Below, piece after piece: positions 26,380 through 48,590 of a stretch of 64,000 nt of DNA. This stretch comes from Cryomorphaceae bacterium 1068 (GTDB lineage: Bacteria; Bacteroidota; Bacteroidia; Flavobacteriales_D; Cryomorphaceae). The stretch is from assembly GCA_027214385.1 (NCBI GenBank), contig JAPVXR010000011.1, forward strand, positions 62,001-126,000, given 5' to 3'. Position numbers and translations under genes: made by a program. Each line of letters opens with the position of its first letter. Positions within the stretch are counted from its first letter, which is position 1. Under the pieces are notes generated by a model. That model was not told the DNA's origin and did not search any database. It worked only from the letters and a program-made list of their open reading frames with translations.

Positions 26380-26380
26380 T

Positions 26381-29376: not shown

Positions 29377-29446
29377 CCACTTATATAGTCAACCTTACCA
29401 GTTGTTAACGAATTCTTGGCAAACTCAATACGACTTGCTATTCTTG
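29377..29446 (+). promoter_or_regulatory. LytTR-type direct-repeat site and promoter, first module
   Basis: Half-sites CCACTTATATAG (29377) and CCAGTTGTTAAC (29398) are 21 bp apart. A -7-like TATTCTTG starts at 29439, 41 bp after the second half-site begins. Predicted transcription starts near 29453, about 58 nt before the ATG at 29511. It is the most degenerate of the four sites but has the same geometry. Confidence 0.6.
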
Positions 29447-29510: not shown

Positions 29511-30785
29511 ATGCACAGAATACTCAAATATCCGATTGTTCTTTTGACTGTTTCACTTCTATGGCTTTCTTGTGCAAAAGACGAAGTTGCCCCATCGGAA
29601 AATTCTGTTCAGAAAATCAAGGTTTTTCAAGATGAAGAAATATTTGCCGTAAATGGAATGGTAGCTGGGGAAGGTTCTATTTTATTGGTTTATACGACTA
29701 ACGCGGACACTTCCTACCTTAAACTGACAGACAATCAAGGTGTGGAAAAATGGACAGTAAATGCATCTTCGAACTTCGGAATTCAAACCACCAATTATTC
29801 TGCCGAAGGCTACTTGCGCAAAGTCATCCATGAAAATGGCGTGTTTACATTTTTCATTCAAAATGGAGACAATAATCTTCGCATCCTTCGAATAGATAAG
29901 TCGGGAAGTGTCATTTCCGAAATTGAAAATTTCACAAATGAGAATACATCCTCATTCAAGATTTTTGGGGTACAGCTTAATTCAAATGGAAATTATGTTT
30001 TGTACGGAAGCATCACTTTGGGTTCTGATAATCGATGCTATTTCGCAGAAATCACTCCAGCCGGTGATGTCGTTTTCAGATCTATCTATACTCCTTTCGG
30101 CGGAGGTACAAAAGGTTTTTCGGGTCTAGAGGAGATAGATGGGGGCTATTATTTGGGAGGGTATTTTAGGTCGAATAGTCAAGTCGTATCTAGTTCTATA
30201 TTTTTAGTCGAATACTCAATTTCGGGCGAATTAGTATCAGAAGAGTTTGTGAATACTCCTATCTCTAATAGCGACTTATTTTTGAACCCTTTTCCGGTTG
30301 GCAGAGAATTGATTAAAAACTTAAACGGCTCCTTTAGCTATTTAATTAGTTCGAACGGATCAGATCAAAATTCAGAACCGACGTTAATTTTTAATTTCTC
30401 AAATGAGGGTCAATTTCTCGATTCGAATCAAATTGACTTTTTAGAAGAGAACTATTTGCCTGGAATCAGTCCTTTTTTTGGTGAAGGGATTATTAAACTA
30501 CGGGATGGTTCTCATATAGGGGTTGGTAATGCCGATTTTGGAAGCCTGCTTCAAGACGAAACTCCCGGACTTACGGGATTCAATCCGAATTATAACAACC
30601 CGAGATACTCATTTATTTACGAGCTAAACACCACAGGACAAATAGCCAGCTATTCCTACCTACAAAGAGAAGTCTTCAATTACATTTCGTGTTTGGATAA
30701 AACATCTGATGGTAAGATCGTAGCTGCAGGAACTTCAATGAGCTTTGGAACCAAACCACAACTTTCAATTCTTTGGCTAAAATGA
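29511..30785 (+). CDS. Lipoprotein, propeller-like, module 1 gene A
   Basis: 424 residues from the ATG at 29511, chosen because it begins the lipoprotein signal MHRILKYPIVLLTVSLLWLSC. The mature protein is all-beta with repeated blades such as YLKLTDNQGVEKWTVNASS, ITPAGDVVFRSIYTPFGGG, GGYYLGGYFRSNSQV and SCLDKTSDGKIVAAGTSM. These patterns (D..G...W, DGGY...G) are typical of beta-propeller proteins. No catalytic residues were recognised. It is the homolog of the 39024-40295 gene in module 2 (KIKVFQDEEIFAVNGMVAG against QVKILGDWNVANSHTVVAG). It is the first gene of an operon; the next gene starts in its stop codon. Confidence 0.82.
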   Translation: MHRILKYPIVLLTVSLLWLSCAKDEVAPSENSVQKIKVFQDEEIFAVNGMVAGEGSILLVYTTNADTSYLKLTDNQGVEKWTVNASSNFGIQTTNYSAEGYLRKVIHENGVFTFFIQNGDNNLRILRIDKSGSVISEIENFTNENTSSFKIFGVQLNSNGNYVLYGSITLGSDNRCYFAEITPAGDVVFRSIYTPFGGGTKGFSGLEEIDGGYYLGGYFRSNSQVVSSSIFLVEYSISGELVSEEFVNTPISNSDLFLNPFPVGRELIKNLNGSFSYLISSNGSDQNSEPTLIFNFSNEGQFLDSNQIDFLEENYLPGISPFFGEGIIKLRDGSHIGVGNADFGSLLQDETPGLTGFNPNYNNPRYSFIYELNTTGQIASYSYLQREVFNYISCLDKTSDGKIVAAGTSMSFGTKPQLSILWLK

Positions 30786-32053
30786 GGTTGTTGAAGTACA
30801 TATGGCTGATTCTTTTAATTTCCTTGTTTTCGTGTTCCAAAGAATCTTCGGAAGGACCTTCGGATATAAAAAGAATAAAAGTTATTGATACGGATGCATC
30901 GTACATATCCAGAAATACTTCCTTCTTGCCAGACGGTTCCACCGTTACTTTAACTCTGCCATTGGATGATAGTCAATCCAACGATAGCCTACCGAGTAAA
31001 CTCTTTCGCTATTCACCTGAAGGTGATTTTATTTGGGAATTGGATCTCCCCGAATCACTGAATGAAGGCTGGAAAGTAATAGCATTGGCAGATGGAAATA
31101 TACTGGTACTGGGATTCTCTGGAGATCTTTTTCCTGAAATGGCCGCCTTGGTGCTCATAAGTCCTGATGCTCAGGTTTTGGAAGAGGTAACCTTCACAGC
31201 GCAAACCAGAATTTTTGAATTTTTGGAGAGCAGGAGAAGTATAGATGGACTTCAACGACAGAATGCGGAGATAGCCGTAGTTGTGCCCGTTATTCCAGGA
31301 CAAGGTCAAGATCTGGTGCCTCGGTTACTTCGTTTTACTTCGAGCTTAGAAATGATTAGTGATGAGATTTATACTGATATTAATGCGAGCCTAAGTCATC
31401 CGGGTTCAGTTTTTCAAATTGGCATTGATGAGGATGATCAGACTCAAATTCACCTACACGGAAAGCTATCACCGCCTGATCCCGACATGAATTATTTCGT
31501 CATGAATATCACCTTAGATGGAGAGACCATAGAAGAAACCAACAGCTACGTGACAAAGGGTAATATCAGAAACTATCCATCAGGGGTTGCGTCATCTGAG
31601 TTAAGCCGTTCTATTTGGTGCGCCGCCGGTAACAATGAGGACGCAGGTATTTTTTCTGCGAACGGTATGGATCTCTTCAGCGTGGGTACTGAAATATCGG
31701 TTTTTCAAACGAGTAGCGAAGCCGATAGTCTTGCGGCAACTGTAATCAGTTCGTTTCCCGGAGGTGGCTACATCAAAACGGTTAAAAGAACCAGAGATGG
31801 TGGTTACGTGCTCTTGGGTACATGCAATGTTGTAGGCGATCAAACCTTTCCATCTGACTACCGAATTTTATTGGTAAAGTTGAGGTTTGACTTAGCCGTC
31901 GAATGGATTCAAAGCCCATCTTTGGGAGTGCCCGCCATAGGAACCGATATCCTAGAATTAGCTGATGGTTACCTAGTAACATGCACACAATACACTTTTT
32001 CAGAAATCAATAAACCCTTCTTGATTCAAACAGATATCATGGGTCAATTTTAA
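30782..32053 (+). CDS. Lipoprotein, propeller-like, module 1 gene B
   Basis: 423 residues. The ATG at 30782 overlaps the previous stop as ATGA, implying translational coupling; a TTG at 30773 is less likely. The signal and lipobox are MRLLKYIWLILLISLFSC. The mature protein starts with KRIKVIDTDASYISRNTSFL and DGSTVTLTLP and has propeller-like repeats (SPEGDFIWELDLPE, GWKVIALADGNILVLGF, RDGGYVLLGTCNVVGDQTFP). It matches gene B of module 2 (RDGGYVLLGTCNVVGDQTFP against SDGGYIMVGTCGVNDNQGIP). Like gene A, it is predicted at the outer membrane. Function is unknown. Confidence 0.83.
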   Translation: MRLLKYIWLILLISLFSCSKESSEGPSDIKRIKVIDTDASYISRNTSFLPDGSTVTLTLPLDDSQSNDSLPSKLFRYSPEGDFIWELDLPESLNEGWKVIALADGNILVLGFSGDLFPEMAALVLISPDAQVLEEVTFTAQTRIFEFLESRRSIDGLQRQNAEIAVVVPVIPGQGQDLVPRLLRFTSSLEMISDEIYTDINASLSHPGSVFQIGIDEDDQTQIHLHGKLSPPDPDMNYFVMNITLDGETIEETNSYVTKGNIRNYPSGVASSELSRSIWCAAGNNEDAGIFSANGMDLFSVGTEISVFQTSSEADSLAATVISSFPGGGYIKTVKRTRDGGYVLLGTCNVVGDQTFPSDYRILLVKLRFDLAVEWIQSPSLGVPAIGTDILELADGYLVTCTQYTFSEINKPFLIQTDIMGQF

Positions 32054-32064
32054 TAAATCAGAAC

Positions 32065-33780
32065 ATGAAAAATCCACTATTCTACATCACAACAGGCTTT
32101 GCAATTATTTTAGCTTTCTCCGTTCAGGGACAAGTAAACTCCTGGTCAGTTTCTCTGACTTCTCAAGGTGAAGGGTCGGAGAGCATAAATAAAATGGAGA
32201 CAGATGACTCAGGCAATATTTTCATTTCAGGAAGTTACAGTGGGAGTGAAAATGTAATGATTGGTGATGTCCTACTCGAACCCCAAGGTTCGCTTTTCTT
32301 GGATTCATTCTTTGGTAAACTGAGTCCATCGGGAGAGCCTCAATGGATTCACCCCCTCGGCGATCCTGGCACTGTATTTTTAGCAGTGCGTGACTTTACG
32401 GTCGATGATGAAGGGTTTTCATATGTCCTGATTTTTGTAGTTCCTTTCGTGGCGGATCTTCCACTTTCATTTGAATTTGCAGGTCTTACCCTCAATCATT
32501 TGCCAGGTGCAGGCGATACGAGCATACTTGTTAAGATCAATCAAGATGGCAACGGCATCTGGAGCAAAACGCTCACAGGTGATGCTAGCTCTGTGGCTAA
32601 CGCAAACTTAACGCTCCTTTCTGATGGCAATATTTTGGTTTCGGGAAACTTTATTGGTGAGGCTCAATTTGACGAGATCAGTTTGTTTTCAGACGGAGGT
32701 GCTGGTCTGGATCTTTTTGCCGCAAAACTTGACGTAAATGATGATTTCGTTTGGGCCAATAGGTTTGGCTCTGTTGAGCTAGATCAATTTGTGGTAGCGG
32801 AGCCAGCTGATGATGGTGGTTATTTCATGTCAGGGTATTGGTCTGGAGAGGAATTTTCCATAGGTGGATTAACGGTGACTAATGACAATCCTGTGATCGG
32901 GGGCAATTTTGATAGATGGATAGCCAAACTTGATTTAGACGGAGTAGGTGAATGGTTGGTTCGTGAAGCGAGTTTAGGCGATGAAGCTGAGGCTGTTCTA
33001 AAAACAACTTCAGATGGGGGGGTTATGGCAGTTTCCTATGCATATGATCCAATTGAAATTGGAGATCAGAGTTTTGAAACAGGTGCAATAGCAGCGAGTA
33101 AGTACGATGATGGGGGTAATTTGGCTTTTGTAAAAGAACTAATTGCTCCTGAGGTTGGCGCTAACAGTGAACTTCTATTTCTCGAAGGAGATGGGGATAC
33201 CTTTTTTCTATCGACGTCGTTTGCCTCCAACACAATAGAAATTGGTGGTGAAGTTTTTGAGAATCAAGGAGGAGAATCAGGTTCATACGACGGCTTATTA
33301 CTTGAAATAGACAGCGAAGGAGATGTGACCGATGGTTTTTCTTATGGGGGTGATGATCAAGACTATTTCACTCCTGCCGTTTTATTACCTAGTGGTGATT
33401 TATTGATTTCGGGAGCCTTTAGTAGTAGTGAAATAACATTAGGTGAGACCACTCTAGTCAACTCGGGTGAATTCACTTCTGACTTCTTCATAGCCAATCT
33501 GTCCTTACCTCTTGGATTATTTGAGAGCTCATTCAATCGCAGCAATCTTTTGATCTACCCCAATCCGGCTGTAGACAATATTCAGATTTCGGGTCAACTT
33601 CAAAATGGCACGCCTGCTCTAGTTCGCATTTATACGCTAGAAGGTAGATTAATCGATGAAATCGTTCGAACTGCGAAGCCAAATAACCTGATAGATGTAT
33701 CACATTTACAGACAGGTGCTTACCTAATTGAATGGGTTCAAGGAAATGATCAGTTTGTGGGCAAATTTTTGAAAAACTGA
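32065..33780 (+). CDS. T9SS-sorted propeller-like protein, module 1 gene C
   Basis: 571 residues with signal peptide MKNPLFYITTGFAIILAFSVQG. The body has SBBP-like propeller blades (DDSGNIFISGSYSGSENVMI, LSDGNILVSGNFIGEAQFDE, DDGGYFMSGYWSGEEFSIGG). The C-terminal 75 residues form a T9SS type A sorting domain (IYPNPAVDNIQISG, IYTLEGRLIDEI, LQTGAYLIEWVQG). It should reach the cell surface through T9SS, whereas genes A and B are lipoproteins, so the three may form a surface complex. It is paralogous to the 41627-43351 product. It starts 11 bp after gene B; no terminator was seen downstream. Confidence 0.87.
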   Translation: MKNPLFYITTGFAIILAFSVQGQVNSWSVSLTSQGEGSESINKMETDDSGNIFISGSYSGSENVMIGDVLLEPQGSLFLDSFFGKLSPSGEPQWIHPLGDPGTVFLAVRDFTVDDEGFSYVLIFVVPFVADLPLSFEFAGLTLNHLPGAGDTSILVKINQDGNGIWSKTLTGDASSVANANLTLLSDGNILVSGNFIGEAQFDEISLFSDGGAGLDLFAAKLDVNDDFVWANRFGSVELDQFVVAEPADDGGYFMSGYWSGEEFSIGGLTVTNDNPVIGGNFDRWIAKLDLDGVGEWLVREASLGDEAEAVLKTTSDGGVMAVSYAYDPIEIGDQSFETGAIAASKYDDGGNLAFVKELIAPEVGANSELLFLEGDGDTFFLSTSFASNTIEIGGEVFENQGGESGSYDGLLLEIDSEGDVTDGFSYGGDDQDYFTPAVLLPSGDLLISGAFSSSEITLGETTLVNSGEFTSDFFIANLSLPLGLFESSFNRSNLLIYPNPAVDNIQISGQLQNGTPALVRIYTLEGRLIDEIVRTAKPNNLIDVSHLQTGAYLIEWVQGNDQFVGKFLKN

Positions 33781-33933
33781 GCCCTGGATCAATGAGAACA
33801 TCAGGATAAGCTATCACATTGATAAGGACAGTTTAGATTTCTTCATCGGGCTTTGGTTCCATAGATTTGGATAAGAAAGAGCCATTTTGACTTACAGTTA
33901 TATATTTGTTGCTTTTGTCTAAAAGCGAAATAC

Positions 33934-34653
33934 TTGTATAAAGCCGTTATAGTAGAAGACGATTCATTATCTGCAGAGGCATTTTCAGACCTACTGAAGG
34001 GAGGTGAATTCGATATTGAAGTGGCGGCGGTTTTCGATTCGGTATCGAGCGCTATCACAGGTATTCGGAATTCAGCTCCAGACTTATTATTTCTCGATAT
34101 GGAACTAGGCGATGGAAAAGGATTTGACGTCTTGCAGGCCATAGGTGAGATTTCCTTTGAGGTGATCATTACCACCGCCCATGAAACATATATGTTGGAA
34201 GCAATTAAGCACTCTGCGCTGGATTATTTGCTCAAGCCGGTGGAAAAGCAAGAATTGAGAGAAGCGTTTCGTCGCTTTGAAAAACGTATTGCTCAAAAGG
34301 TTCCTAAAGTTGATCAGCAGTCAGTCAAATCAAATAAACTGGTTATCCCCAACCAAGAAGGGCTTATTTTGGTAGAAATTGAAGACATTCTTCGTCTTGA
34401 ATCGGATGGACCGTACACTACCCTTCATCTTGCAGGTGGACAAAAGAAAGTATCGAGTAAGAACCTGGGTTTCTATGAGGAGTCACTAAAACATCATTCC
34501 TTTTTTCGGGTCCACCATAGTCACGTTGTGAACTTGAATCACGTGGCCAATTACGTGAGAGGAGAAGGAGGCCACGTAGTACTCTCAGACAAAAGTATAG
34601 TAGCCGTATCTCGCAGAAAAAAGGAAGATTTCCTCTCGGTACTTGGAGTCTGA
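33934..34653 (+). CDS. LytTR-family response regulator
   Basis: 239 residues. The receiver domain (about 1-118) has VIVEDDS, phospho-acceptor D55 in LLFLDMEL, TTAHE and Lys in YLLKPVEK. The LytTR DNA-binding domain is at about 135-238 (LVEIEDILRLESDGPYTTLH, FFRVHHSHVVNLNHVANYVR). The start is TTG; no in-frame ATG exists between the upstream stop at 33862 and residue 56. LytTR proteins bind two direct repeats about 21-22 bp apart, and such repeats lie in front of four nearby operons. No LytS-like kinase is adjacent; the hybrid kinase 9 kb downstream, whose promoter carries the same repeats, is a candidate partner. Confidence 0.9.
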   Translation: MYKAVIVEDDSLSAEAFSDLLKGGEFDIEVAAVFDSVSSAITGIRNSAPDLLFLDMELGDGKGFDVLQAIGEISFEVIITTAHETYMLEAIKHSALDYLLKPVEKQELREAFRRFEKRIAQKVPKVDQQSVKSNKLVIPNQEGLILVEIEDILRLESDGPYTTLHLAGGQKKVSSKNLGFYEESLKHHSFFRVHHSHVVNLNHVANYVRGEGGHVVLSDKSIVAVSRRKKEDFLSVLGV

Positions 34654-34687
34654 ACTGCCTGTGCTAGTGGTGTTTTGCTTCTTCTTT

Positions 34688-34757
34688 CCACTTGTTAAAT
34701 GAACTTCGCCACTTATTAAGCACAGCATTGTACTAGGGATTTCTTTTCCCATACTTG
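34688..34757 (+). promoter_or_regulatory. LytTR-type direct-repeat site and promoter, nSTAND1 operon
   Basis: Half-sites CCACTTGTTAAA (34688) and CCACTTATTAAG (34709) are 21 bp apart. A -7-like CATACTTG starts at 34750, 41 bp after the second half-site begins. The implied transcript start near 34764 excludes a GTG start at 34762 and favours the ATG at 34855. Confidence 0.65.
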
Positions 34758-34854
34758 CCTTGTGGAAACAAGAGATAATACATCGAATGAGCTCTCAGGT
34801 AAGGAGAATTCTTTTATTTTGGTGGAAAACCAATCTACCACTCACGCTAATTTG

Positions 34855-37809
34855 ATGGAAGGGAATTCCAATCCATTTGTCGGTCTTCGAGCTTTCGACC
34901 CAAATGAGAGTCAATTGTTTTTCGGAAGGGAAGAACACGTTTCTGATGTCAGAGCAAAGCTCGAATCCAATCACTTTGTCGCAGTAGTCGGCACTTCTGG
35001 AACTGGAAAGAGTTCTTTGATTCGTGCAGGTGTTTTGCCTTCGATAGCTTCCGAAAACGAGAATGACGAGTCTCCCAATTGGCATATTGTTTCGATGAAG
35101 CCAGGGAATGACCCACTTGGAAATCTTTCCAAATCTGTTTCTGGTAAGTTCCAAAGCTTAGACGAGGATAAAACGCTGACTTTGATCAAGAGGAGTTCCT
35201 TGGGGTTGGTTCAGGCCATGCGTGGAATCATGGAATCCAATGAGCGACTCTTAATTCTTGTTGATCAATTTGAAGAGGTTTTTCGATTTACTACCGACGC
35301 ATCTGAAGACGCCATGCAGGTGTACAATCATTTTGTGCAGACTTTGGTCGATACGATGCGTCAGCGCGATATTCCGATTTATCTCATTCTAACACTTCGA
35401 TCTGACTTTTTAGGAGACTGTGTGCGCTTCGCGGGCTTACCCGAAGCCATTAATGATGGTCATTATTTAGTTCCGCGAATGCGCGAAGAGCAAATCAAGC
35501 GGGTCATTACGGGCCCGATAGCATTAGCCGAAGGTAGAATTTCCCCTCGTGTGGTGCAGAAAGTGGTTCAGGAGATGGGCAATGACTCCGACCGACTGCC
35601 CATTTTGCAGCATGCTTTAATGCGAACTTATGATGTTTGGCAATCTGCAGGAGTGACGGGTGAACCAATTGATGTGAAACATCTCGACCAAACGGGAGGC
35701 ATAAATCAAGCATTGTCAACCCATGCCGACGAAGCTTTTAATGAGCTAAGTCAAGATCAGCAGAAGCTTGCTGCAAAAATATTTAAAGCATTAACCGTGA
35801 AGGCGGAAGGAAGTCGTGGGGTGAGAAGACCTATGAGCCTTAGTCAATTAATAGAAGTGACAGAAGCTTCGAGCGACCATATACTATCGGCTTTAAATCC
35901 TTTCAGAAAGTCAGGAAGAAGTTTTGTATCGCCTGGTGAGACGGCCGAAGTAAATGACTCGACCATATTCGATATTTCCCACGAAAGCTTAATGCGCGGT
36001 TGGAAACGCCTCAAAAACTGGACGGAAGAGGAGATGGATTCTGCTGCACTTTATGTGCGCATTTCAGAAGCGGCCGCTTTGCATAAAGAAGGTGCCGCCG
36101 CGCTCTGGAGAGATCCCGAATTGCAACTGGCTGAAGATTGGAAAGCGCGCCAAAAGCCAAATGATGCCTGGGGTTCGCTTTATCATTCAGGGTATTCTGA
36201 TGCCATGAGTTTTCTGGAAAAAAGTCACGACCGGCAAGCGGCAGAGGTAGCAGCCAAAAAACGACGCTCACTATTGGTTCGGGCGGCCGTATTGGTTTTT
36301 GTAGTGGTGGTTACTAGCCTATCTGCTTGGGCACTTTACCAATCAAATATCGCTACTGAAAAATCACTGGAAGCTCAGGCAAAAAGTGAGGAGGCATTGA
36401 ACGAAAAAGCGCGAGCTGAAACGGAAAAAGAGCGTGCAGTAGAAGCTTCTCAATTGGCTGAAGAGGCCCAACTCACCGCGGAAGAAGAGGCCGCAAGGGC
36501 CGAGCGTCAAGCTAAAATAGCGGCTGAGCAAGAAAGTCTTGCCAGCGAAGAGAGAAATAAAGCTGAATTGGCCGCAGCTCTGGCAATGACTGAGCGAGAA
36601 AAAGCCCTTCAGCAGAAGGAATTGGCCGACCTTAAAACGGTTGAGGCACTTACAGAAAAACAAAAAGCTGACTCCGCAAGAGATGAGGCCTACCGTTTGC
36701 GCATGATAGCCTTGAGTGAAAACGTGGCATATCAGTCGGCCCAAATTACCGCAGATCCTGAGTTGGCAGCGCTTCTGGCCATTGAGTCATTTAAACTGGC
36801 TCGCGAAAATGGGGGAGACCCTAACAATCCATCCCTTTACGCATCAGCACAAAGAGCTCTGGAGAATATAGATCGTTCCTACAGTCCTATCAAAAAACAA
36901 TTAAATACCAGTGTCGTGGCAATGAGTGTTGCTGGATCAAAGGCTGCTGTCATAGATAAAGAAGGCTCGTTTACCACCTTCAATGTAAACAATGACTACA
37001 CTACAATTGTCTCCGAAACGAAGCTCAAGGCAGGAGAGGAGCTCAACTCAGCTGTCTTCCTTAGTGCTAACCTTTCGTATGCGATCGGTTTACAAAATTT
37101 AAACATCAAGACTTCAGAAGGAACTGTTCTCAGCGGACATGAGGGATTTTTGAGAGGTGCGGCGAAAACGGCTGATGGTGCTCAATTGATCACAGGAGGA
37201 AGGGATGGACTCATCAAAGTATGGGACGGGAATTCTGAAGTGTATTCAAACGATTTAGGTTCTCGAGTGAGAGACTTGACGAGACTTGGAAACAAAGATG
37301 AGTTTCTTATTGCCTTAGAAAGTGGAAAGACATTAAAGTTTAAGCTTAACGATAAGAGGAAAATGGATTTTTCTTCTCGGAGTGGCGTTCGCGCTGAAAC
37401 TCTTTCTTCTTCTACAAGCGGAAACAGAATAGCCATAGGGTACTCTGACGGAATTGTTGAACTTCTTTCAAAAAGCGGAGGCCAAATCGCACAAATTCCA
37501 CATGTAGGAAGCATTAAATTCCTGGAACTAATTGAGGGTGACGACCTCTTGATTGTAGGCACCAGTGCAAAAGCGGTTTTCATTTATCAATTGAGCAATC
37601 CTACCGCATTGCCTATTGAAGTTAGAGACAATAGACCGATCGAAGCAGTGGCTTTTTGTCCTGTAAAAAAAGCGATCATCATTGCTACCTCAGACCGTAA
37701 ACTCAAAGAATACCCCGTTCGAAATCAAGATTGGATCAACCAGCTGGAAAGTTTGGTGAGTCGCCAATTGACTGCGGCAGAGCGAGAAACTTTTATTGAA
37801 AAAGAATAA
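34855..37809 (+). CDS. nSTAND1 NTPase with membrane helix, coiled coil and propeller-like C-terminus
   Basis: 984 residues from the ATG at 34855 (1015 if a GTG at 34762 is used, which would lie at the transcription start). The NTPase begins at once with NPFVGLRAFDPNESQLFFGR. The Walker A is GTSGTGKSS (about residues 46-54), Walker B LLILVDQFEE (132-141), and LTLRSDFLGDC follows, all hallmarks of nSTAND1. A membrane helix lies at about 473-495. An Ala/Glu-rich coiled coil of about 130 residues follows, then a degenerate WD40-like propeller (LSGHEGFLRG, LITGGRDGLIKVWDG). STAND proteins are ligand-driven oligomerising switches; the ligand and output here are unknown. It is cotranscribed with the TPR/barrel protein (10-bp gap). 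Confidence 0.88.
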   Translation: MEGNSNPFVGLRAFDPNESQLFFGREEHVSDVRAKLESNHFVAVVGTSGTGKSSLIRAGVLPSIASENENDESPNWHIVSMKPGNDPLGNLSKSVSGKFQSLDEDKTLTLIKRSSLGLVQAMRGIMESNERLLILVDQFEEVFRFTTDASEDAMQVYNHFVQTLVDTMRQRDIPIYLILTLRSDFLGDCVRFAGLPEAINDGHYLVPRMREEQIKRVITGPIALAEGRISPRVVQKVVQEMGNDSDRLPILQHALMRTYDVWQSAGVTGEPIDVKHLDQTGGINQALSTHADEAFNELSQDQQKLAAKIFKALTVKAEGSRGVRRPMSLSQLIEVTEASSDHILSALNPFRKSGRSFVSPGETAEVNDSTIFDISHESLMRGWKRLKNWTEEEMDSAALYVRISEAAALHKEGAAALWRDPELQLAEDWKARQKPNDAWGSLYHSGYSDAMSFLEKSHDRQAAEVAAKKRRSLLVRAAVLVFVVVVTSLSAWALYQSNIATEKSLEAQAKSEEALNEKARAETEKERAVEASQLAEEAQLTAEEEAARAERQAKIAAEQESLASEERNKAELAAALAMTEREKALQQKELADLKTVEALTEKQKADSARDEAYRLRMIALSENVAYQSAQITADPELAALLAIESFKLARENGGDPNNPSLYASAQRALENIDRSYSPIKKQLNTSVVAMSVAGSKAAVIDKEGSFTTFNVNNDYTTIVSETKLKAGEELNSAVFLSANLSYAIGLQNLNIKTSEGTVLSGHEGFLRGAAKTADGAQLITGGRDGLIKVWDGNSEVYSNDLGSRVRDLTRLGNKDEFLIALESGKTLKFKLNDKRKMDFSSRSGVRAETLSSSTSGNRIAIGYSDGIVELLSKSGGQIAQIPHVGSIKFLELIEGDDLLIVGTSAKAVFIYQLSNPTALPIEVRDNRPIEAVAFCPVKKAIIIATSDRKLKEYPVRNQDWINQLESLVSRQLTAAERETFIEKE

Positions 37810-37819
37810 GTAAAACAGC

Positions 37820-38842
37820 ATGACTAGACTACATCTATATCGAACTATAACAATTGCAGTTGGAATATTCCTGTTTCACACGATGATTGCGCAGAACAGT
37901 CCTTGTATGACAAAACTGAAAGATGCGGGACTATTGATAGAAGAGGGGAGAAATGATGAGGCTATCAATCTATTAAAAGATGCCCTTGAGAACTGCAACT
38001 TCTCGTCAGAAGACAAGATCACGGCTCACAAAGCTTTGATACTAGCCTACTTCGAAATTGATGATTTGGAAAGTGCCGATGCCTCGGCGGAAGCCATCAT
38101 AAAAATCAATCCCAATTACAAGGCGGACAAATTGCGCGATCCTGCCGAGATGATCGCACTTTTTGAGAAGTACAAGCCGGTAGTGACATTCAGGGCGGGA
38201 TTGACTGGTGGAATCAATAGTACTTCCGTCGAGGCATCGGCTACTTATTCTATTGTTACCGATGATGATACACCCGGATTAGCCAACTATGAATCAGAGG
38301 TAGGTTTTCAAATTGGCGCTACAGCTGAATACCGACTTTGGATGGAGCTTTGGGTAGGTTCGGGATTGAGCTTTCGGCGATCTTCCTATTCCAATTCTGT
38401 ACCCAATGTAGAGGGAAGGACCATTTCTTACAGTGAAGACCTGAACTACTTTGATATACCGTTGAGCCTGAATTATTATTTTCTTGATTCCAAATTACAG
38501 CCCTTCGTTACTGCAGGCGGACAGGTCTCCTTTTTGGCTTCGGCAGTGGGAGAGCTTAGTCGTGACGATATTTCAGATCTTGTTGATCGTGACATCCAAC
38601 GGGAAGATGTGATGGTTGGTTTTTTCGGTGGAGCTGGACTAGCCTATCAATATGGCAACCTTTCTTTCCGCTTATCGGCAAACTATATGTTCTACCCCGA
38701 AGAGGTTAATAAAGAAGGAACCCGCTACGAAAACTTGGAAAGCATTTTTAGGTACTACTACCTCGACAATGATTTTACCATCGACTTTTTGCAGGTCAAA
38801 GCGGGTGTGGTGTACCACCTAGGATTTAAGACCGCGAAATGA
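37820..38842 (+). CDS. TPR plus outer membrane beta-barrel protein
   Basis: 340 residues with a signal peptide (MTRLHLYRTITIAVGIFLFH..., ending near IAQ). Residues 28-120 are TPR-like helices (LKDAGLLIEEGRNDEAINLL, ALILAYFEIDDLESADASAE) leading to a short segment (LRDPAEMIALFEKYKP). Residues 125-340 form a beta-barrel (TFRAGLTGGINST, GATAEYRLWMELWVGSG, YFDIPLSLNYYFLDS, LQVKAGVVYHLGF). It probably sits in the outer membrane with its TPRs in the periplasm. Being in one operon with the membrane-anchored nSTAND1 protein, it may connect the inner-membrane switch to the envelope; this is inference. Confidence 0.84.
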   Translation: MTRLHLYRTITIAVGIFLFHTMIAQNSPCMTKLKDAGLLIEEGRNDEAINLLKDALENCNFSSEDKITAHKALILAYFEIDDLESADASAEAIIKINPNYKADKLRDPAEMIALFEKYKPVVTFRAGLTGGINSTSVEASATYSIVTDDDTPGLANYESEVGFQIGATAEYRLWMELWVGSGLSFRRSSYSNSVPNVEGRTISYSEDLNYFDIPLSLNYYFLDSKLQPFVTAGGQVSFLASAVGELSRDDISDLVDRDIQREDVMVGFFGGAGLAYQYGNLSFRLSANYMFYPEEVNKEGTRYENLESIFRYYYLDNDFTIDFLQVKAGVVYHLGFKTAK

Positions 38843-38895
38843 TATCCTGTCTCTCCGCTTTATTCGTTTTAATGGGTTCAGCTCTTGCGAATTTT

Positions 38896-38965
38896 CCACT
38901 TGTAAAAGGAATCCTAGCACTTATTAAGGAATATTTGTTTGCTCTGTGGAATGCTTGTATCATCG
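38896..38965 (+). promoter_or_regulatory. LytTR-type direct-repeat site and promoter, second module
   Basis: Half-sites CCACTTGTAAAA (38896) and GCACTTATTAAG (38917) are 21 bp apart. A weak -7-like TATCATCG starts at 38958, 41 bp after the second half-site begins; AATGCTTG at 38950 is an alternative. The ATG of the first gene is at 39024. Confidence 0.6.
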
Positions 38966-39023
38966 TGTGGTGAATAAAGCTAGCACTAAGTTCAACACGA
39001 TCTGAGACTAACAGGAATGATAA

Positions 39024-40295
39024 ATGCTGAATAGCACATACAAAGTCTTCTTTTTTCTTTCTGTAAGCCTTCTTTTCAGCGGTTGCCAGAAGAGTGATGA
39101 TCCATCTGATGGAATTCAAGAGATTTCTCAAGTCAAGATTCTAGGGGATTGGAATGTGGCAAATTCACATACCGTAGTTGCTGGAAATGGCGTCTATATT
39201 TTACTGTTTAGCGATGTCGAATCTCAATACATTGCTAAATTGATGACAAATGAAGGCGCAGAACTTTGGACCAAGAACATCAGTGAAGAAACCGGGCTAA
39301 TTGCGTCAGAAGAATCACTCGCTATAGAAGAAGGCTTATACGATACGGATGGCACATTTGTATTTTTTTCTCACCGCAGACTCTTTAAAATAGATCTACA
39401 GGGAGAAGTGGTCTATGACAATCCTGATTTCCTATCAGCTTTTTCTAGTGGAGTTAGTTTTATAAGCATCCTAAACGCATTTGTGACCAGTGATGGCGGG
39501 TACCTTGTCACAGGAAGTATACGCGTAGGAACGGGCAATACAAGGGCTTATTATACGAAGTACTCCAAAGAAGGAGATGTTATATTTTCTAAGACTTATT
39601 TTATCGACACGGGTGGTAATATGGGTATAACCGGAGCTGTCGAGCAAGATGGTTTTTATATGTTGGGTGGCTATTATTCGGTGACTTCAGGAACAGGTAA
39701 TAACCAATTTTACCTGCTTAAAATTTCATCTAGTGGTAAGCTAGTTTGGGCTCAGAACCACAGCACTTTGTCTACGGATTTCTTTTACCCTTTCAGCTAC
39801 GAAGCAATACTTGGAAGGGAATTGATCCCCTTAGCCAATGAGCAAACCATGTATATTATGGTACCACCAAATGAATTTATGGCAGATCGGCGGTCGAAGG
39901 GATTTATCTTAGATGAAACGGGGGCTGTGGTCGACAGCATTTTCTTTGATTTATCCGACTCAAATGCCGCCGGTGGTGCACATCCCGGTATCGGAAAAGG
40001 TATTGTGCAAACAAATGAAAACTGTTTTGTCGGAATTATAAACCCTATTGCTAGCATTGAAGGGACTGTTCTTCCTAACGAAATCAATGTCCCCATCAAT
40101 TACGAAATTCCAAATTTCGGTTATGTCTATACTATTGATGCTTTTGGAAGAATTGAAGATATGAAGTATGTCAACCGGTCTTTGTCGAATACTTTTACCG
40201 CTATTGCATTGCTGTCGAATGGGAATACTTTGATTTTCGGAGTTCAAGCGAGTATTAACAATGAGGTGCGGCTCATTTTAATTACCAACAAATGA
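39024..40295 (+). CDS. Lipoprotein, propeller-like, module 2 gene A
   Basis: 423 residues. The lipoprotein signal MLNSTYKVFFFLSVSLLFSGC is followed by a short polar linker. The mature protein has beta blades like those of the 29511-30785 product (YIAKLMTNEGAELWTKNISE, VTSDGGYLVTGSIRVGTGNT, YSKEGDVIFSKTYFIDTGGN, LSNGNTLIFGVQASINN). Placement, length and blade order agree with module 1 gene A, so the two are paralogs from duplication of the whole operon. It is predicted at the outer membrane. No catalytic motif was seen. The next gene overlaps its stop codon. Confidence 0.83.
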   Translation: MLNSTYKVFFFLSVSLLFSGCQKSDDPSDGIQEISQVKILGDWNVANSHTVVAGNGVYILLFSDVESQYIAKLMTNEGAELWTKNISEETGLIASEESLAIEEGLYDTDGTFVFFSHRRLFKIDLQGEVVYDNPDFLSAFSSGVSFISILNAFVTSDGGYLVTGSIRVGTGNTRAYYTKYSKEGDVIFSKTYFIDTGGNMGITGAVEQDGFYMLGGYYSVTSGTGNNQFYLLKISSSGKLVWAQNHSTLSTDFFYPFSYEAILGRELIPLANEQTMYIMVPPNEFMADRRSKGFILDETGAVVDSIFFDLSDSNAAGGAHPGIGKGIVQTNENCFVGIINPIASIEGTVLPNEINVPINYEIPNFGYVYTIDAFGRIEDMKYVNRSLSNTFTAIALLSNGNTLIFGVQASINNEVRLILITNK

Positions 40296-41611
40296 GCGGG
40301 TTGAAAATATTGATTTGCCTATTCGCTTTGATTACTTGGGGATGTTCCAAAGATTCCGATTCAAGTCGGAGTTTCTCTTCTATCAAATTGCTTGATACCA
40401 GTACAGATTATTTGGCAAGAACCATATTAACACTTCCTGATGGTTCAGTTTTTATGGGCTGTGTGGGGCAGGAAGATGAAGGGAATCCAGGGAATTACGG
40501 AACTAGACCCTCCCTACTTGCCAAGTATGACGGTCAAAGTGCATTGGAATGGGTAATAGAATTACCACCGGAGGTATACGTACTATGGAAATGCATCTCG
40601 TTGAGCAATGGACACATTCTGGCGGTTGGATATGACAATGAGCGCAACTCCCAAATGGTTGGAGCGGTAATTTTGGATTCTGAAGGTACCGTATTGCATA
40701 CAACAAGTTTTTTCAATCAATTATCCACTTCGAGTAGTGACGGTCCAAGAAGCACCGTAGATGCGATTCAAATTCAAGATGGCAGGATTATTTTGGTGAT
40801 CCCAAACCGTATTACTGAGAATGGTAATGCCGTTCTGCGTGTCGTCTCATTAGACGATCAACTATTTGCTCTTGAAGACATTAATTACGAGAATCTGGAC
40901 GATCTGGAAAATCGGGGGATGAGGCAATTTAGCATTGAGCAAGACTCTAACGGAGATCTTCTTATTGCAGGAACCATGATACGTACCGTGGGATCGGAGA
41001 ACCCGTTCATGGGCATTATCAAATTAAGTAGTAGCCTTGATGTTATCAGTTCTCGGGCAATCACATCTTTAAGCATTCCTTTTCCAGGTCCTTTCGAAGG
41101 AAACTCCCGTGGTGAAATTGCATCTAATATTGCCCTTGATCCTATTGGTTATCCTGTTTTTGTGTCTTCATTGCGCAATCCAAACGATAGTCTTTATGAG
41201 CCACTTTTTAATTTGAGAGATCAAGAGTTTTTTATGCGTGCTCCGCAGTTTGAGCTTTGGAATGTCAATAGCAATGAAGTGGAAGCTCCGATAAAGCAAA
41301 TCAGCGGTTATCCTTCCAATGCAATAATTCAGAAATTACGAAGTACAAGTGACGGCGGCTACATTATGGTTGGCACCTGCGGAGTAAACGATAATCAGGG
41401 TATTCCTTCAAATTACCAATTGCTCATCGTCAAAGTAGATCCGTCCTTGAATCTTCAGTGGTTGAGTTTTCCACGTATGCAATACGCTACACTTGGCGCA
41501 GATATAATCGAATCAGGGGGAGGCTACTTAGTCACTGGTTCACAACGTTTCCTCGGTCAAACGAATAAGCCTTTCTTTTTACGAATCAATCAATCGGGAA
41601 TTATAGAATAA
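40292..41611 (+). CDS. Lipoprotein, propeller-like, module 2 gene B
   Basis: 439 residues. The start overlaps the preceding stop as ATGA, exactly as in module 1. The signal and lipobox are MSGLKILICLFALITWGC. The mature part begins SIKLLDTSTDYLARTILTLP with DGSVFMG, the counterpart of module 1 gene B. Later blades include WKCISLSNGHILAVGYDNE, SDGGYIMVGTCGVNDNQGIP and GGGYLVTGSQRFLGQTNKPF, the last corresponding to ADGYLVTCTQYTFSEINKPF in module 1. It is predicted to act on the cell envelope with gene A and the T9SS product of gene C. Its function is unknown. Confidence 0.83.
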   Translation: MSGLKILICLFALITWGCSKDSDSSRSFSSIKLLDTSTDYLARTILTLPDGSVFMGCVGQEDEGNPGNYGTRPSLLAKYDGQSALEWVIELPPEVYVLWKCISLSNGHILAVGYDNERNSQMVGAVILDSEGTVLHTTSFFNQLSTSSSDGPRSTVDAIQIQDGRIILVIPNRITENGNAVLRVVSLDDQLFALEDINYENLDDLENRGMRQFSIEQDSNGDLLIAGTMIRTVGSENPFMGIIKLSSSLDVISSRAITSLSIPFPGPFEGNSRGEIASNIALDPIGYPVFVSSLRNPNDSLYEPLFNLRDQEFFMRAPQFELWNVNSNEVEAPIKQISGYPSNAIIQKLRSTSDGGYIMVGTCGVNDNQGIPSNYQLLIVKVDPSLNLQWLSFPRMQYATLGADIIESGGGYLVTGSQRFLGQTNKPFFLRINQSGIIE

Positions 41612-41626
41612 TCCGATTTAGCAAAA

Positions 41627-43351
41627 ATGAAAATCATGAGAAAAATTAACTATTGTCTATTTAGTGCTTTGTATCTTTCCAGTCTTTCCATGCAGGTAGA
41701 TGCGCAAACGCCTGAATGGCAAAGTGTAACAGAGTCGGGTGGTGCGGAGAGTGAAACGGCTAGACTGATATCAGAAGATCAGGATGGAAATGTTTTTGTT
41801 GCGGGGAATTATTCAGGTGATTTTTCATACGCAGGTCAATCTTTTGAGTATTCGGAAAACGAGAACCCAAGTGGTTCAGATGCTTTTCTCTCAAAATTAA
41901 GTCCAGATGGAACCACGGTATGGTCCATAAATCTGGGCAATCCAAATACTCAACTTTCATATTTTTCAGGATTGGTAAATGACTTTGAAGGTAATACCTA
42001 TCTCTGCGGAATTATTCAACCTACTGTACCTGGTTTAATGGTATCATTTGCCGGGTTTGAAGTAATCGCAAACCCGCCAAACTCTGCGTTCTTATGTAAA
42101 ATTGATGCTGATGGAAACGGTGTATGGATCAAGACATTTAGTGCATCGGGAAGCGATTTCCTAATAACGGTAAACCCCTCTCTCGGAATAGATAGTAATG
42201 ACGATCTTATTCTTGGTGGTTCTTTTACAGGTACATTGGACTTAGATGGTACAATTTTATCAGTGATAGGAAATCATTTTGACCACTTCACAAGTAAGTT
42301 TGATTCAGATGGAAATGTGCTTTGGGCCAAAAGTTTCGGGAGTTCCAATACAGAACAACTCTTAACCTTAAGCGTGGCAAGCGACGATGGTATATTTCTC
42401 GGTGGATCTTGGTCAGGGGATAGTCTCTTTTTGGGTGACTTAGTTGTCGTAAACGACGACCCATTGGTGGGTGACAATTTTGATCGGTGGATTGGAAAGT
42501 TGAATTCAGATGGAGAGGAAATACTTCTAAGCCGAGAAGCCGTTGGTGGTTCTAACCCTTTTCTTGTGAACCCCGCAGCTATTGCACCTGCAGCAGATGG
42601 TGGTGCAATGATCCTTTCGGGTGTCTATAATCCAATCACGATTGGCGGAGAAGAAATCAGTGAGAATGGAGTGTTGATGACAAAATATAACTTTGAGGGA
42701 CAGCTGGCATCCGTTGAATTCATTGCTGAATTGACACCTTCAGGGACCATCATTCCAGATGGTAATGGAAACTACTTTTATGCTGGGAATTTCACAACGC
42801 CGGAAATAACCATAGGTACGGATGTATTTTCCAACATGGGTGGAGCAACGGGTACGACCGATGCGGTGTTAATCCAATGCGATGAAAATGGGGCCACCAA
42901 TTACGCACTGCAAATAGGGGATGTAGAGAATGAATCTATTTCAAGATTGAGATTGATGTCGTCGAGTCAATTGTTGGTGGCTGGAACGTACAATAGCTCA
43001 AGCTTAAGCTTAGGTGGCGAAACGCTTGAAAATATTGGGTTTCTGACCAATGATTTTTTCTTGGGTAATTTGGATTTCACTACGGGGCTTATCGAATGGA
43101 ACGATGCCGAGGAAATTTCTGTTTTTCCAAATCCAGCTAGCGACTTACTTAGCATCGACTTACCATCCATTGAAAGAGGTAATTCCAAGGTGTCCATTTT
43201 CGACATGAATGGTCGTGTTGTTTATCAAGCCAATGAAAGGATGAGCAAGGTGAAGCGTTTGGATGTGTCTTTCCTCGAAAACGGAATTTATGTTTTGGAT
43301 ATCCAAGGGGCAGAAGCTCATTATGTGAGCAAATTTATTGTCAATAAGTAA
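41627..43351 (+). CDS. T9SS-sorted propeller-like protein, module 2 gene C
   Basis: 574 residues with a signal peptide (MKIMRKINYCLFSALYLSSL..., ending near VDAQ). SBBP-like blades correspond to those of module 1 gene C: DQDGNVFVAGNYSGDFSYAG, GDNFDRWIGKLNSDGEEIL (module 1: GGNFDRWIAKLDLDGVGEWL), SDDGIFLGGSWSGDSLFLGD. The C-terminal T9SS type A domain is VFPNPASDLLSIDL, IFDMNGRVVYQ, LENGIYVLDIQGAE. It starts 15 bp after gene B and is the last gene of the operon, which ends at a terminator 46 bp downstream. Confidence 0.87.
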   Translation: MKIMRKINYCLFSALYLSSLSMQVDAQTPEWQSVTESGGAESETARLISEDQDGNVFVAGNYSGDFSYAGQSFEYSENENPSGSDAFLSKLSPDGTTVWSINLGNPNTQLSYFSGLVNDFEGNTYLCGIIQPTVPGLMVSFAGFEVIANPPNSAFLCKIDADGNGVWIKTFSASGSDFLITVNPSLGIDSNDDLILGGSFTGTLDLDGTILSVIGNHFDHFTSKFDSDGNVLWAKSFGSSNTEQLLTLSVASDDGIFLGGSWSGDSLFLGDLVVVNDDPLVGDNFDRWIGKLNSDGEEILLSREAVGGSNPFLVNPAAIAPAADGGAMILSGVYNPITIGGEEISENGVLMTKYNFEGQLASVEFIAELTPSGTIIPDGNGNYFYAGNFTTPEITIGTDVFSNMGGATGTTDAVLIQCDENGATNYALQIGDVENESISRLRLMSSSQLLVAGTYNSSSLSLGGETLENIGFLTNDFFLGNLDFTTGLIEWNDAEEISVFPNPASDLLSIDLPSIERGNSKVSIFDMNGRVVYQANERMSKVKRLDVSFLENGIYVLDIQGAEAHYVSKFIVNK

Positions 43352-43520: not shown

Positions 43521-43589
43521 CCACTTATTAAACCATCTATGCCACTTGTTAAGAATCTTTGTAATTCCGCTTAACAAGTGGCATACTTG
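43521..43589 (+). promoter_or_regulatory. LytTR-type site with an extra inverted half-site, hybrid kinase promoter
   Basis: Half-sites CCACTTATTAAA (43521) and CCACTTGTTAAG (43542) are 21 bp apart. A third, inverted copy at 43570-43582 matches GCCACTTGTTAAG (43541-43553) over 13 of 13 bases. A -7-like CATACTTG starts at 43582, 40 bp after the second half-site begins. The inverted copy touches the core promoter, so binding there could repress. Confidence 0.65.
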
Positions 43590-43646: not shown

Positions 43647-45989
43647 ATGACTATCGTATTCATCGTAGTATTTCTTTTGGCAGGCATAGCAGTTGGTTTT
43701 TTTGTGTCCAAAGCAAAGGCAGCGAAAGAGCAGAGCTCTGTATTGCAATTCCTGAAGGCCTCCGCTACAGGTCAGATAGCCGATGAAGCTGGAATGCCTG
43801 ATCGGGCTAGAGAAATTGCAATACTGATCAAGTCAACACAGGAAGAAGAGGAGATCGAAAAGTCTACAAGTGATCCTGCAGTCGATGAAAACATTGATAC
43901 TACAATAAAAGAACGACTCAATAATACCCTTATCATCAATGAACTCGGGCAAAAAATCACTTCTTCGCTCGAACTTGAAAACACCTTCGATCACCTACAC
44001 CACACCCTCAACTCCTTAATGGATGCTTCCGCATTGGAATTGGGCGTGTACAATGAAGAGATGGAAAGATGGTCGGTTTTCTCCAATCTGGAAAAGCCTC
44101 ATGTGGGTGAGTACAATAATCACTTTGCAACTTGGGTGCTTAAGAATGACCGTGTGGTTTTCTTGAATGACGCCGAACTTGATTACGGCCGATTTGTGGA
44201 TACGCCTCTGCAATTGAAAGGTGGAGAGATGGCTCAAAGTCTGATGTCGTTTCCCATTTCCATTGATGGAATCGTTCGCGGAACCATTACTATCATCAGC
44301 TTTAGAAAAGACGCTTTCAACGATTACCACAAGGACAGCATCGATCAGCTTCTCGGCTTTCTTTCGGTGGCTTTGCAAAACGCTTTCACTCACGAGCAAC
44401 TCAATCTTTTGAAGATTAGAGCAGAACAGAGCGAAAAACACGAGCAACAGTTCCTGGCAAACATGAGCCACGAAATTCGCACTCCGATGAACGCCGTTTT
44501 GGGAATGACGAATCTCCTTCTCGATACGCCCATGAACGAGAAACAAGTGAAGTACCTCAGGGCTATCAACACCTCTTCGAAGAATCTACTGGTTATTATC
44601 AACGATATTCTCGACCTCAGCAAGCTCGAAGCGGGTAAAATGGAAATCGAACGGATCCCTTTTCGCATAAGAGATGTCATTGAAAATGTGAGTGAAACAA
44701 ACCGATTTAAAGCAGAAGAGAAAGGCTTAAACTTCGAAATAAACATCAGTCCCGACATACCCGATGTAGTAAAAGGCGATCCGACCAGGCTCAATCAAAT
44801 TATCACCAATCTATGTTCCAACGCCATCAAGTTCACCGAAAAAGGACGTATTACCATAAGTGTGGATCAGCCCAAGGATAGCCATTTTATCTCTTTCCGA
44901 GTAATCGATACAGGAATTGGAATTCCCGAAGACAAATTGCACTTGCTCTTCAGCAACTTTAAGCAAGTAGATTCAAGTACGTTTAGAAAGTACGGTGGTA
45001 CAGGGTTGGGACTTTCTATCTCAAAAACACTGATCGAACTGCAAGGTGGAAAGGTAGAAGTGAAAAGTGAATTAGGGAAAGGATCCGAATTCTCAGTGCA
45101 AATTCCATACGAAGTGGGTGATGTGGATGATGTTAAGAGTTTGGATGGCGATAAAAAGTCCGACTACAGCTCATTGACTGGCATGAGAATCCTCATTGCA
45201 GAGGACAACGAGTACAATCAAATTGTGGTAAATGACACTTTGGAATCGTTGATTCCTGATGTACACCTAGACATTGCCGAGAATGGCTTGATTGCTCTGG
45301 AAATGGCAACGACCAATGAGTATGATGCGATTCTTATGGATGCTCAAATGCCCGAAATGGACGGATTGGATTCTACACGTTCGATTCGAAAATTAGCAGA
45401 CTCCGACAAATCTAAAATCCCAATCATAGCCCTAACCGCAAGCGTGCACAAAGCCGATATCGATAAATGTCTGGATGCGGGAATGGACGATTTCGTTCCC
45501 AAGCCTTTTACACGCGATGAACTACTCGGTACGCTGGCCAAATATTATGAAAGTGCGAATCCAAAAACCGAGGTGAAGAAACAATCGGTTCCTGCCAAAG
45601 AAACTCCATCTGAGGTATCAGAGAATGCCATTGTTGCACCTCAAAATGGTATGGTTACACATCTGGAATTCTTGCGCGAATTTGCCGAAGGCGACGAAAC
45701 GAGAATGAGAAAGTACGTGGGTATGTACCTGAAGCTTCTTCCCGGGAATCTGGAGAAGATCGAAGCTGCCACTGCTCAAAATGACAATGAATTGCTCGTA
45801 AAAGTACTGCACTCCATGAGGCCACACCTCAACTATATGGGGATGAAGAAGGCAGCTGAAATTGCAGGGAATATTGAAAGTGCCGTGCGAGAAGAAGCTG
45901 ATCAGTCATTTGTACCTGAGGCGGCACAAACAATTTTAAATCAATGTAAAAAATCTGAAGGCGAACTAAATGAATGGCTTAGCAAATAA
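43647..45989 (+). CDS. Hybrid sensor histidine kinase with GAF, receiver and Hpt domains
   Basis: 780 residues. An N-terminal membrane helix (3-20) is followed by a coiled coil and a GAF-like sensory domain (about 95-250). HisKA has H275 in NMSHEIRTPMNAV. The HATPase has N box NLCSNAIKF, G1 DTGIGIP (421-427) and G2 GGTGLGLS (450-457). The receiver (512-635) has D565 in AILMDAQMPEMDG and Lys in FVPKPF. The Hpt domain (about 665-775) has H722 in VLHSMRPHLNYMG. The full phosphorelay chain is therefore in one protein. It overlaps by 20 bp a stand-alone receiver gene, and a receiver-adenylate cyclase gene follows, so these are likely phosphate acceptors. Its promoter carries the LytTR-type repeats. 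Confidence 0.92.
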   Translation: MTIVFIVVFLLAGIAVGFFVSKAKAAKEQSSVLQFLKASATGQIADEAGMPDRAREIAILIKSTQEEEEIEKSTSDPAVDENIDTTIKERLNNTLIINELGQKITSSLELENTFDHLHHTLNSLMDASALELGVYNEEMERWSVFSNLEKPHVGEYNNHFATWVLKNDRVVFLNDAELDYGRFVDTPLQLKGGEMAQSLMSFPISIDGIVRGTITIISFRKDAFNDYHKDSIDQLLGFLSVALQNAFTHEQLNLLKIRAEQSEKHEQQFLANMSHEIRTPMNAVLGMTNLLLDTPMNEKQVKYLRAINTSSKNLLVIINDILDLSKLEAGKMEIERIPFRIRDVIENVSETNRFKAEEKGLNFEINISPDIPDVVKGDPTRLNQIITNLCSNAIKFTEKGRITISVDQPKDSHFISFRVIDTGIGIPEDKLHLLFSNFKQVDSSTFRKYGGTGLGLSISKTLIELQGGKVEVKSELGKGSEFSVQIPYEVGDVDDVKSLDGDKKSDYSSLTGMRILIAEDNEYNQIVVNDTLESLIPDVHLDIAENGLIALEMATTNEYDAILMDAQMPEMDGLDSTRSIRKLADSDKSKIPIIALTASVHKADIDKCLDAGMDDFVPKPFTRDELLGTLAKYYESANPKTEVKKQSVPAKETPSEVSENAIVAPQNGMVTHLEFLREFAEGDETRMRKYVGMYLKLLPGNLEKIEAATAQNDNELLVKVLHSMRPHLNYMGMKKAAEIAGNIESAVREEADQSFVPEAAQTILNQCKKSEGELNEWLSK

Positions 45990-46383: not shown

Positions 46384-46405
46384 AGAGATTGCTCCTACAA
46401 AACCT

Positions 46406-48512: not shown

Positions 48513-48530
48513 TGCCGCACCAAGAAAAAG

Positions 48531-48559
48531 AAAAAAGCCCGAACTAAACGATTCGAGCT
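48531..48559 (-). terminator. Intrinsic terminator after the Asp-rich lipoprotein gene
   Basis: On the minus strand AGCTCGAA and TTCGGGCT form an 8-bp stem (one T-G pair) with an 8-nt loop, then TTTTTT. It lies about 30 bp past the stop at 48591. Confidence 0.75.
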
Positions 48560-48590
48560 TTGGTCATTTAATGGTTGTTATAAATGATGC

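Follow-up and report, generated by a model that had tools for sequence, protein, structure and literature searches.

STAND switches are known to act as danger sensors in the cytosol, as in NLRs, Apaf-1 and bacterial defence; what, then, would a STAND protein do among genes for proteins of the cell surface? The question is raised by a locus in Cryomorphaceae bacterium 1068, where a preliminary description made from the sequence had noted two three-gene modules, each encoding two lipoproteins (A and B) and one protein for the type IX secretion system (C), with genes for a LytTR regulator, an nSTAND1 protein and a TPR/barrel protein between them. The locus was analyzed within a stretch of 64,000 nucleotides (contig JAPVXR010000011.1, positions 62,001 to 126,000), here called the window; coordinates refer to the window, and the genes and boxes of the block are on the plus strand.

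An 18.3-kb Block That Is Absent from a Congener

A check of the open reading frames found every gene of the preliminary description open at the coordinates given for it, with the LytTR, nSTAND1 and TPR/barrel genes lying between the modules as described (33934-34653, 34762-37809, and 37820-38842). The end that had been set for the region, at 43351, did not hold, because the unit runs on to 47464. The block covers ~29.2-47.47 kb of the window (~18.3 kb), its right limit being the stop codon of a cyclase gene at 47464, and besides the modules and the LytTR and nSTAND1 genes it includes the TPR/β-barrel gene and three signaling genes, which encode a hybrid histidine kinase, a single-domain response regulator and a response regulator-cyclase. 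In a congeneric genome (G001), the left neighbour of the block (window positions 28179-29195, 77% identical) adjoins the right neighbour (window positions 47466-47918), the flanks being colinear on both sides with none of the block's genes between them. Because the congener has colinear flanks without any block gene, the ~18.3 kb are gained or lost as one piece, and the block comprises exactly the set of genes discussed here, present or absent as a unit. The empty site suggests an insertion of the block, with loss in the congener as the alternative. Since nSTAND1 was found in two of the eight genomes of the family, the block has a patchy distribution. A mobile-element origin was checked and set aside: the two block ends share no repeat longer than 8 bp, the GC contents compared are nearly equal (0.42 vs 0.44), and no recombinase is found among the open reading frames listed in 24-50 kb.

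A genome of another genus of the same family ('Cryomorphaceae bacterium', G003; contig PXBH01000100.1, locus L011) carries on one strand, in this order, LytTR, nSTAND1, TPR/barrel, A, B, C, a second C, the hybrid kinase and the regulator-cyclase, with 4-bp overlaps between the genes from nSTAND1 to B. Module 1 and the single-domain regulator of the window are thus extra, as this order does without them, whereas the whole run of signaling genes from the kinase to the cyclase (43647-47464) is part of the unit. The flanking layout itself, in which one module stands on each side of the core, is not a conserved feature, since G003 has a single A-B-C module after the core.

Two further differences were seen near the block. 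On its right (47940-49172), two genes of the window, one uracil-DNA-glycosylase-like and one for a small lipoprotein, are both missing at the colinear place in G001, which marks the right junction as a variable site. At 25492-27325, two neighbouring secreted proteins share a C-terminal T9SS-type tail (45% identical) and little likeness elsewhere, and G001 has a counterpart of one only, which is partial (L126, 3840-4328).

Two Homologous Sets of Predicted Surface Propellers

Module 1 consists of A1 (29511..30785), a propeller-like lipoprotein (C-AKDEV) with a weak DUF5122 propeller match, B1 (30782..32053), a propeller lipoprotein, and C1 (32065..33780), an SBBP-like propeller with a T9SS type-A sorting domain; module 2 repeats the order with the lipoproteins A2 (39024..40295) and B2 (40292..41611) and with C2 (41627..43351), built like C1. 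The ATGA overlap of A and B reported for both modules was located at 30782 and 40292. The pairwise alignments that the preliminary description had called for bore out the homology of the two modules, with BLASTP giving 27% identity over 420 aa for A1 and A2 (E 7e-39), 25% identity for B1 and B2 (E ~1e-44), and 32% identity over 577 aa for C1 and C2 (E 4e-82). Shuffle Z-scores were 44-67 when genes of like position were paired but did not exceed ~4 for cross-position pairs such as A1-B2 or B1-C2, indicating that the similarity is specific to gene position. Generic propeller similarity, which had been named as one outcome that would speak against a duplicated module, was rejected, as the same-position scores lie far above the cross-position scores and the similarity is well above the level of unrelated propellers.

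B1 and B2 are the only B genes in the source genome, and a search of the genome contigs with the B profile gave G003 as the sole other match. The A and B profiles are distantly related (hhalign probability 85%, E 6e-6, ~156 columns), and the module therefore combines two old lineages of one propeller-lipoprotein family with C. A recent duplication of the module was unsupported, A1 and A2, like B1 and B2, being about as distant from each other as from their G003 counterparts, with the split undecided in the trees. The two C genes of G003 are mutual sisters in the tree and stem from a separate duplication. NCBIfam holds no full-length name for A or B.

The features ascribed to these proteins were also recovered. 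The AF2 model of B2 (pLDDT 75, pTM 0.80) has ~28 strands, and its nearest fold is the CylK propeller (Z 34), followed by lectins and others, BtuG propellers being also alike; as modelled, B2 is thus a propeller similar to those with seven blades. The C proteins C1 and C2 matched Por_Secre_tail at 45 bits (E 1.4e-11) and 58.7 bits (E 7e-16), respectively, against a cut-off of 27, and the genome encodes SprA (SprA_N), so that by sorting domain and secretion system both qualify as type-A cargo of the T9SS. Both also matched the model of LipL53-type SBBP propellers partially and far below its curated cut-off (E 3.5e-16 for C2), and they differ from that type in being type-A T9SS cargo and not lipoproteins. 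The lipoprotein surface-export signal (LES), in its optimal form C-X-K-(D/E)2-X after the lipid-modified Cys (PMC5080379), is exact in A1 (CAKDEV) and approximate only in A2 (CQKSDD), B1 (CSKESS) and B2 (CSKDSD), and the surface exposure of these three is predicted from such approximate signals.

An nSTAND1 NTPase That May Span the Periplasm

The nSTAND1 gene (34762..37809), whose start may lie near codon 31, encodes a protein that matched the nSTAND1 family of Pfam at 313 bits (E 4.5e-93; cut-off 27.1), with Walker A (GTSGTGKSS, aa 77) and Walker B (LVDQFEE, aa 166) both intact and with Walker core residues that are invariant in 19 homologues. By this domain and these motifs, the protein qualifies as an nSTAND1-type STAND NTPase. 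It has a single hydrophobic segment (aa 504-522) preceded by AAKKRRS, and each of the 15 intact or near-intact homologues examined has one such transmembrane segment, mostly after a K/R-rich stretch. From the single segment and its flank, the NTPase is predicted to lie in the cytoplasm and the C-terminal half in the periplasm. In the AF2 model (pLDDT 83; pTM 0.48, so that the placement of the domains is unreliable), the NTPase region is accompanied by a long helix (478-661), whose one interruption is near residue 563, and by a C-terminal WD40 propeller (~705-985). By arithmetic, the ~140 helix residues after the membrane segment would measure ~200 angstroms, and the helix could cross the periplasm.

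In Foldseek searches Apaf-1 gave the top full-length matches, and the propeller alone matched 5yzv with a TM-score of 0.82. Pfam, model and Foldseek agree on the likeness, an NTPase with a winged-helix region followed by a C-terminal WD40 propeller in one chain. Apaf-1 is cytosolic and has two propellers and no transmembrane segment, whereas the protein of the block has one such segment, the long helix, and a single, predicted-periplasmic propeller; it thus has the NTPase and C-terminal WD40 of the Apaf-1-like STAND-WD40 proteins and departs from their cytosolic, membrane-free form. The whole-chain TM-score to Apaf-1 is ~0.24, owing to the differing domain arrangement.

A Core That Recurs across the Bacteroidia

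The gene that follows (37820..38842) encodes a TPR and outer-membrane β-barrel protein (OMP_b-brl_2, E 8e-13; weak TPR matches), for which no solved structure was matched by sequence. Among 395 Bacteroidia genomes, its profile matched in 34 and that of nSTAND1 in 30, the latter counting only matches that cover the TM/WD40 half; 29 genomes have both (Fisher p ~1e-37), and in the sole genome with nSTAND1 alone the locus is cut by a contig end. The barrel gene directly follows 27 of the 34 nSTAND1 genes and lies within 8 kb of three more. The co-occurrence with LytTR and nSTAND1 genes, which had been proposed as a check, was borne out in other genomes. Of the 20 loci read from end to end, most have between one and eight lipoproteins of ~400-450 aa next to the barrel, and the core that is conserved consists of nSTAND1, TPR/barrel and propeller lipoproteins. 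T9SS-sorted proteins come after the core in loci L070, L076 and L077. Families other than this one also have several lipoprotein pairs per locus: L064 has at least three and probably four, L062 has two, and L065 has two whose genes show the same 4-bp overlaps. The doubled module is thus one case of a recurrent pattern.

Candidate LytTR Boxes and Signaling Genes

The LytTR response regulator (33934..34653; TTG start; Response_reg and LytTR domains) shares 53% identity with its positional counterpart in G003. Four copies of a direct repeat with the consensus CCACTTRTTAA-N10-CCACTTRTTAA and a period of 21 bp were found in the window. Box 1, upstream of A1 (29377..29408), reads CCACTTATATA-N10-CCAGTTGTTAA and has two mismatches to the consensus; box 2, upstream of nSTAND1 (34688..34719), box 3, upstream of A2 (38896..38927), and box 4, upstream of the kinase operon (43521..43552), match exactly. 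Each lies 42-102 bp 5' of the annotated start of its gene, that of nSTAND1 being perhaps further downstream. Shuffles of the window gave an expectation of 0.01 matches, compared with the four observed; in the whole 4.3-Mb genome, the three exact sites and the two-mismatch site fall in the block, two weak matches lie elsewhere, and a control pattern read backward has no match. Published LytTR sites consist of paired 9-11-bp repeats with spacers of 11-13 bp (PMC4847170) or 10-13 bp (PMC11347149), a geometry that the boxes, with 11-bp repeats, a 10-bp spacer and positions upstream of the putative target genes, fit. Because the genome has nine LytTR genes, the link between boxes and regulator is positional, and the boxes are assigned to the LytTR protein of the block by position, as candidate targets. 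This protein resembles the YpdB-type response regulators in its REC-LytTR composition and in paired direct repeats of near-published spacing, and differs from them in that, judging by its candidate sites, it would control a surface-propeller and STAND locus.

Some 30 bp beyond the boxes, the sequence hints at a -7 promoter element in front of A1, nSTAND1 and the kinase; for A2 the indication is weak. An inverted half-site (TTAACAAGTGG) 3' of box 4 (43571-43581) may be a third binding half-site. Upstream of nSTAND1 in G003 and in G575 (L058), a related repeat CCGAATATMAA-N10-CCGRTTRTMAA with the period of the window's boxes was noted by eye, the matrix trained on the window scoring the G003 site weakly and leaving the G575 site unlisted. 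The full box sequence therefore differs between genera (CCACTTRTTAA vs CCGRTTRTMAA).

Behind box 4 lie the hybrid histidine kinase (43647..45989), with GAF, HisKA, HATPase, REC and Hpt domains (Pfam), an N-terminal hydrophobic segment and 59% identity to the syntenic G003 gene; the single-domain response regulator (45970..46383; Response_reg); and a response regulator fused to a class III nucleotide cyclase (46406..47464; Guanylate_cyc, E 6e-59), 54% identical to its syntenic G003 gene. An evident periplasmic sensor is missing from the kinase, as is any known domain that would connect it with nSTAND1. Across families the signaling partners of the core are LytTR, a class III cyclase, SpoIIE, a kinase, or none, so that the read-out is not fixed.

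A Possible Trans-envelope Sensing System and Its Alternatives

Taken together, these results lead us to propose, with about an even chance of being right, that the locus encodes a sensing system which spans the envelope, reinforces itself by positive feedback and has two interchangeable sets of surface proteins. From the predicted topology and folds we infer how binding, ligand, signal direction and output might be connected. Two alternative sets, each of two propeller lipoproteins (A and B) and a T9SS-exported propeller (C), would be made and would assemble on the TPR/β-barrel of the outer membrane, or close to it, the TPR part of this protein facing the periplasm. With the NTPase in the cytoplasm, the membrane segment and the long helix could hold the WD40 propeller near the outer membrane, where it might read the state of the barrel/lipoprotein assembly. 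Release or binding at the WD40 propeller would alter the state of the NTPase, as in Apaf-1, and this would be passed to the kinase, Hpt and response-regulator set. Phosphorylated LytTR could then bind the four boxes and activate the surface sets of both modules as well as nSTAND1-TPR and the kinase-cyclase operon, closing the positive feedback, while the cyclase would add a second-messenger output. The doubled module might allow one switch to read two ligands or to present two surface variants. The duplication with its ATGA overlaps, the boxes with their LytTR-like geometry, the repeats of equal period in two other genomes, the single transmembrane segment, the modelled long helix and WD40 propeller, the Apaf-1 fold match, the co-occurrence of nSTAND1 and TPR/barrel, the synteny with G003, the empty site, the multiplied lipoprotein pairs, the T9SS-sorted proteins beside the core elsewhere and the presence of SprA all support the sensing reading. 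Against it weigh the kinase, with neither an evident periplasmic sensor nor a domain tying it to nSTAND1, the varying signaling partners, the box sequence that differs between genera, the nine LytTR genes of the genome, and the approximate export signals of B1, A2 and B2. With somewhat less confidence, a little short of even, we extend it to a hitherto undescribed class of envelope-spanning STAND switches in Bacteroidota, in which a cytoplasmic Apaf-1-like NTPase would read the surface through a periplasmic WD40, the TPR/barrel and multiplied lipoprotein pairs, and would control its own surface repertoire.

The main rival to this sensing system is an assembly machine working from the inside out, in which NTP binding or hydrolysis by nSTAND1 would energize or gate the assembly or display of surface propellers via the TPR/barrel, the kinase and LytTR regulating expression only. 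The intact and invariant Walker residues would suit such a machine, as would a core that recurs with varied or no signaling genes, but STAND NTPases are established as switches and not motors, and export can proceed by the T9SS and lipoprotein flipping without an extra machine; we hold it to be unlikely. The fold of B2, close to lectin and BtuG propellers, also invites comparison with BtuG-BtuB of Bacteroides, where, according to one report (PMC10404256), the surface lipoprotein BtuG is stably bound to BtuB, a barrel of the outer membrane, and the propellers could accordingly bind a vitamin or glycan, for which the barrel would serve as the pore. The likeness, a surface lipoprotein propeller beside an outer-membrane barrel, stops there: no TonB-dependent transporter, SusD or hydrolase gene was found among the open reading frames of the block (29.2-47.5 kb), which has two propeller lipoproteins and a T9SS propeller instead, the barrel is small with TPR in place of a plug, and the propeller fold matches are unspecific. 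Such a nutrient-binding locus is less likely than the assembly machine, and rather improbable.

A slightly smaller probability still is given to defence, in which the surface propellers and the envelope STAND protein would detect phage adsorption and trigger a response, perhaps via the cyclase. STAND NTPases, among them nSTAND1, have been connected with conflict systems (PMC8195603; PMC10907252), whose nSTAND1 proteins belong to the same NTPase family; the block is patchy and has an empty site in a congener, and its cyclase domain aligns weakly with Pycsar cyclases. Against this, the conflict nSTAND1s pair with effector-associated or lectin domains, whereas that of the block has as its partners an outer-membrane TPR/barrel, lipoproteins, cargo of the T9SS and two-component genes; no effector domain was found when the main open reading frames of the block were scanned with Pfam, no phage-defence gene is among its open reading frames, PADLOC matched nSTAND1 and the cyclase domain weakly and partially and A2, B2, C2 and TPR/barrel not at all, and the core is linked to two-component and SpoIIE genes. 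Finally, propellers are common in Bacteroidota (a search with C2 gave ~150 first-look candidates in the source genome), and their genes might stand beside a signaling cluster by chance, with no joint function. The synteny in G003, the shared local boxes, the gain or loss of the block and the class-wide co-occurrence make this very improbable, and the boxes, the co-occurrence and the empty site largely refute it.

Returning to the proposed sensing system, no description of it was found in the open-access literature, to which the search extended with most subscription papers outside it, in agreement with the earlier remark that no system with such a layout was known. The parts are of known families; it is the combination, and especially an envelope-spanning STAND protein, for which no description was found there. 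We regard it as a novel form of STAND signaling that may, with fair probability, prove to be a class of its own. If the proposal is true, a periplasmic sensing propeller tied to outer-membrane and T9SS propellers would offer a new way to carry information from the surface through both membranes, and the widespread unnamed families of TPR/barrel proteins and propeller lipoproteins would gain a function, the core being present in ~8% of the sampled Bacteroidia genomes. The local boxes make the circuit directly testable.

Other Arrangements around the Core

The loci read elsewhere differed in several minor respects. The TPR/barrel gene often occurs in tandem pairs or triples (L060, L062, L063, L064, L065, L067 and L068) and sometimes without an adjacent nSTAND1 gene, the two being unlinked in G494, G582 and G608. 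A second nSTAND1 class, of ~1500 aa, is frequent in family f55 (G340, G378, G412, G471, G498 and others), and the genomes of this family gave no TPR/barrel match. In loci of several families (L021, L022, L059, L069, L071 and L074), the core is preceded by an MFS-HEAT protein, which is sometimes accompanied by a HAMP-SpoIIE phosphatase and by a 440-aa protein that matches nothing in Pfam. Several of these loci run on into giant proteins; in L069, the one scanned, these have PKD repeats.
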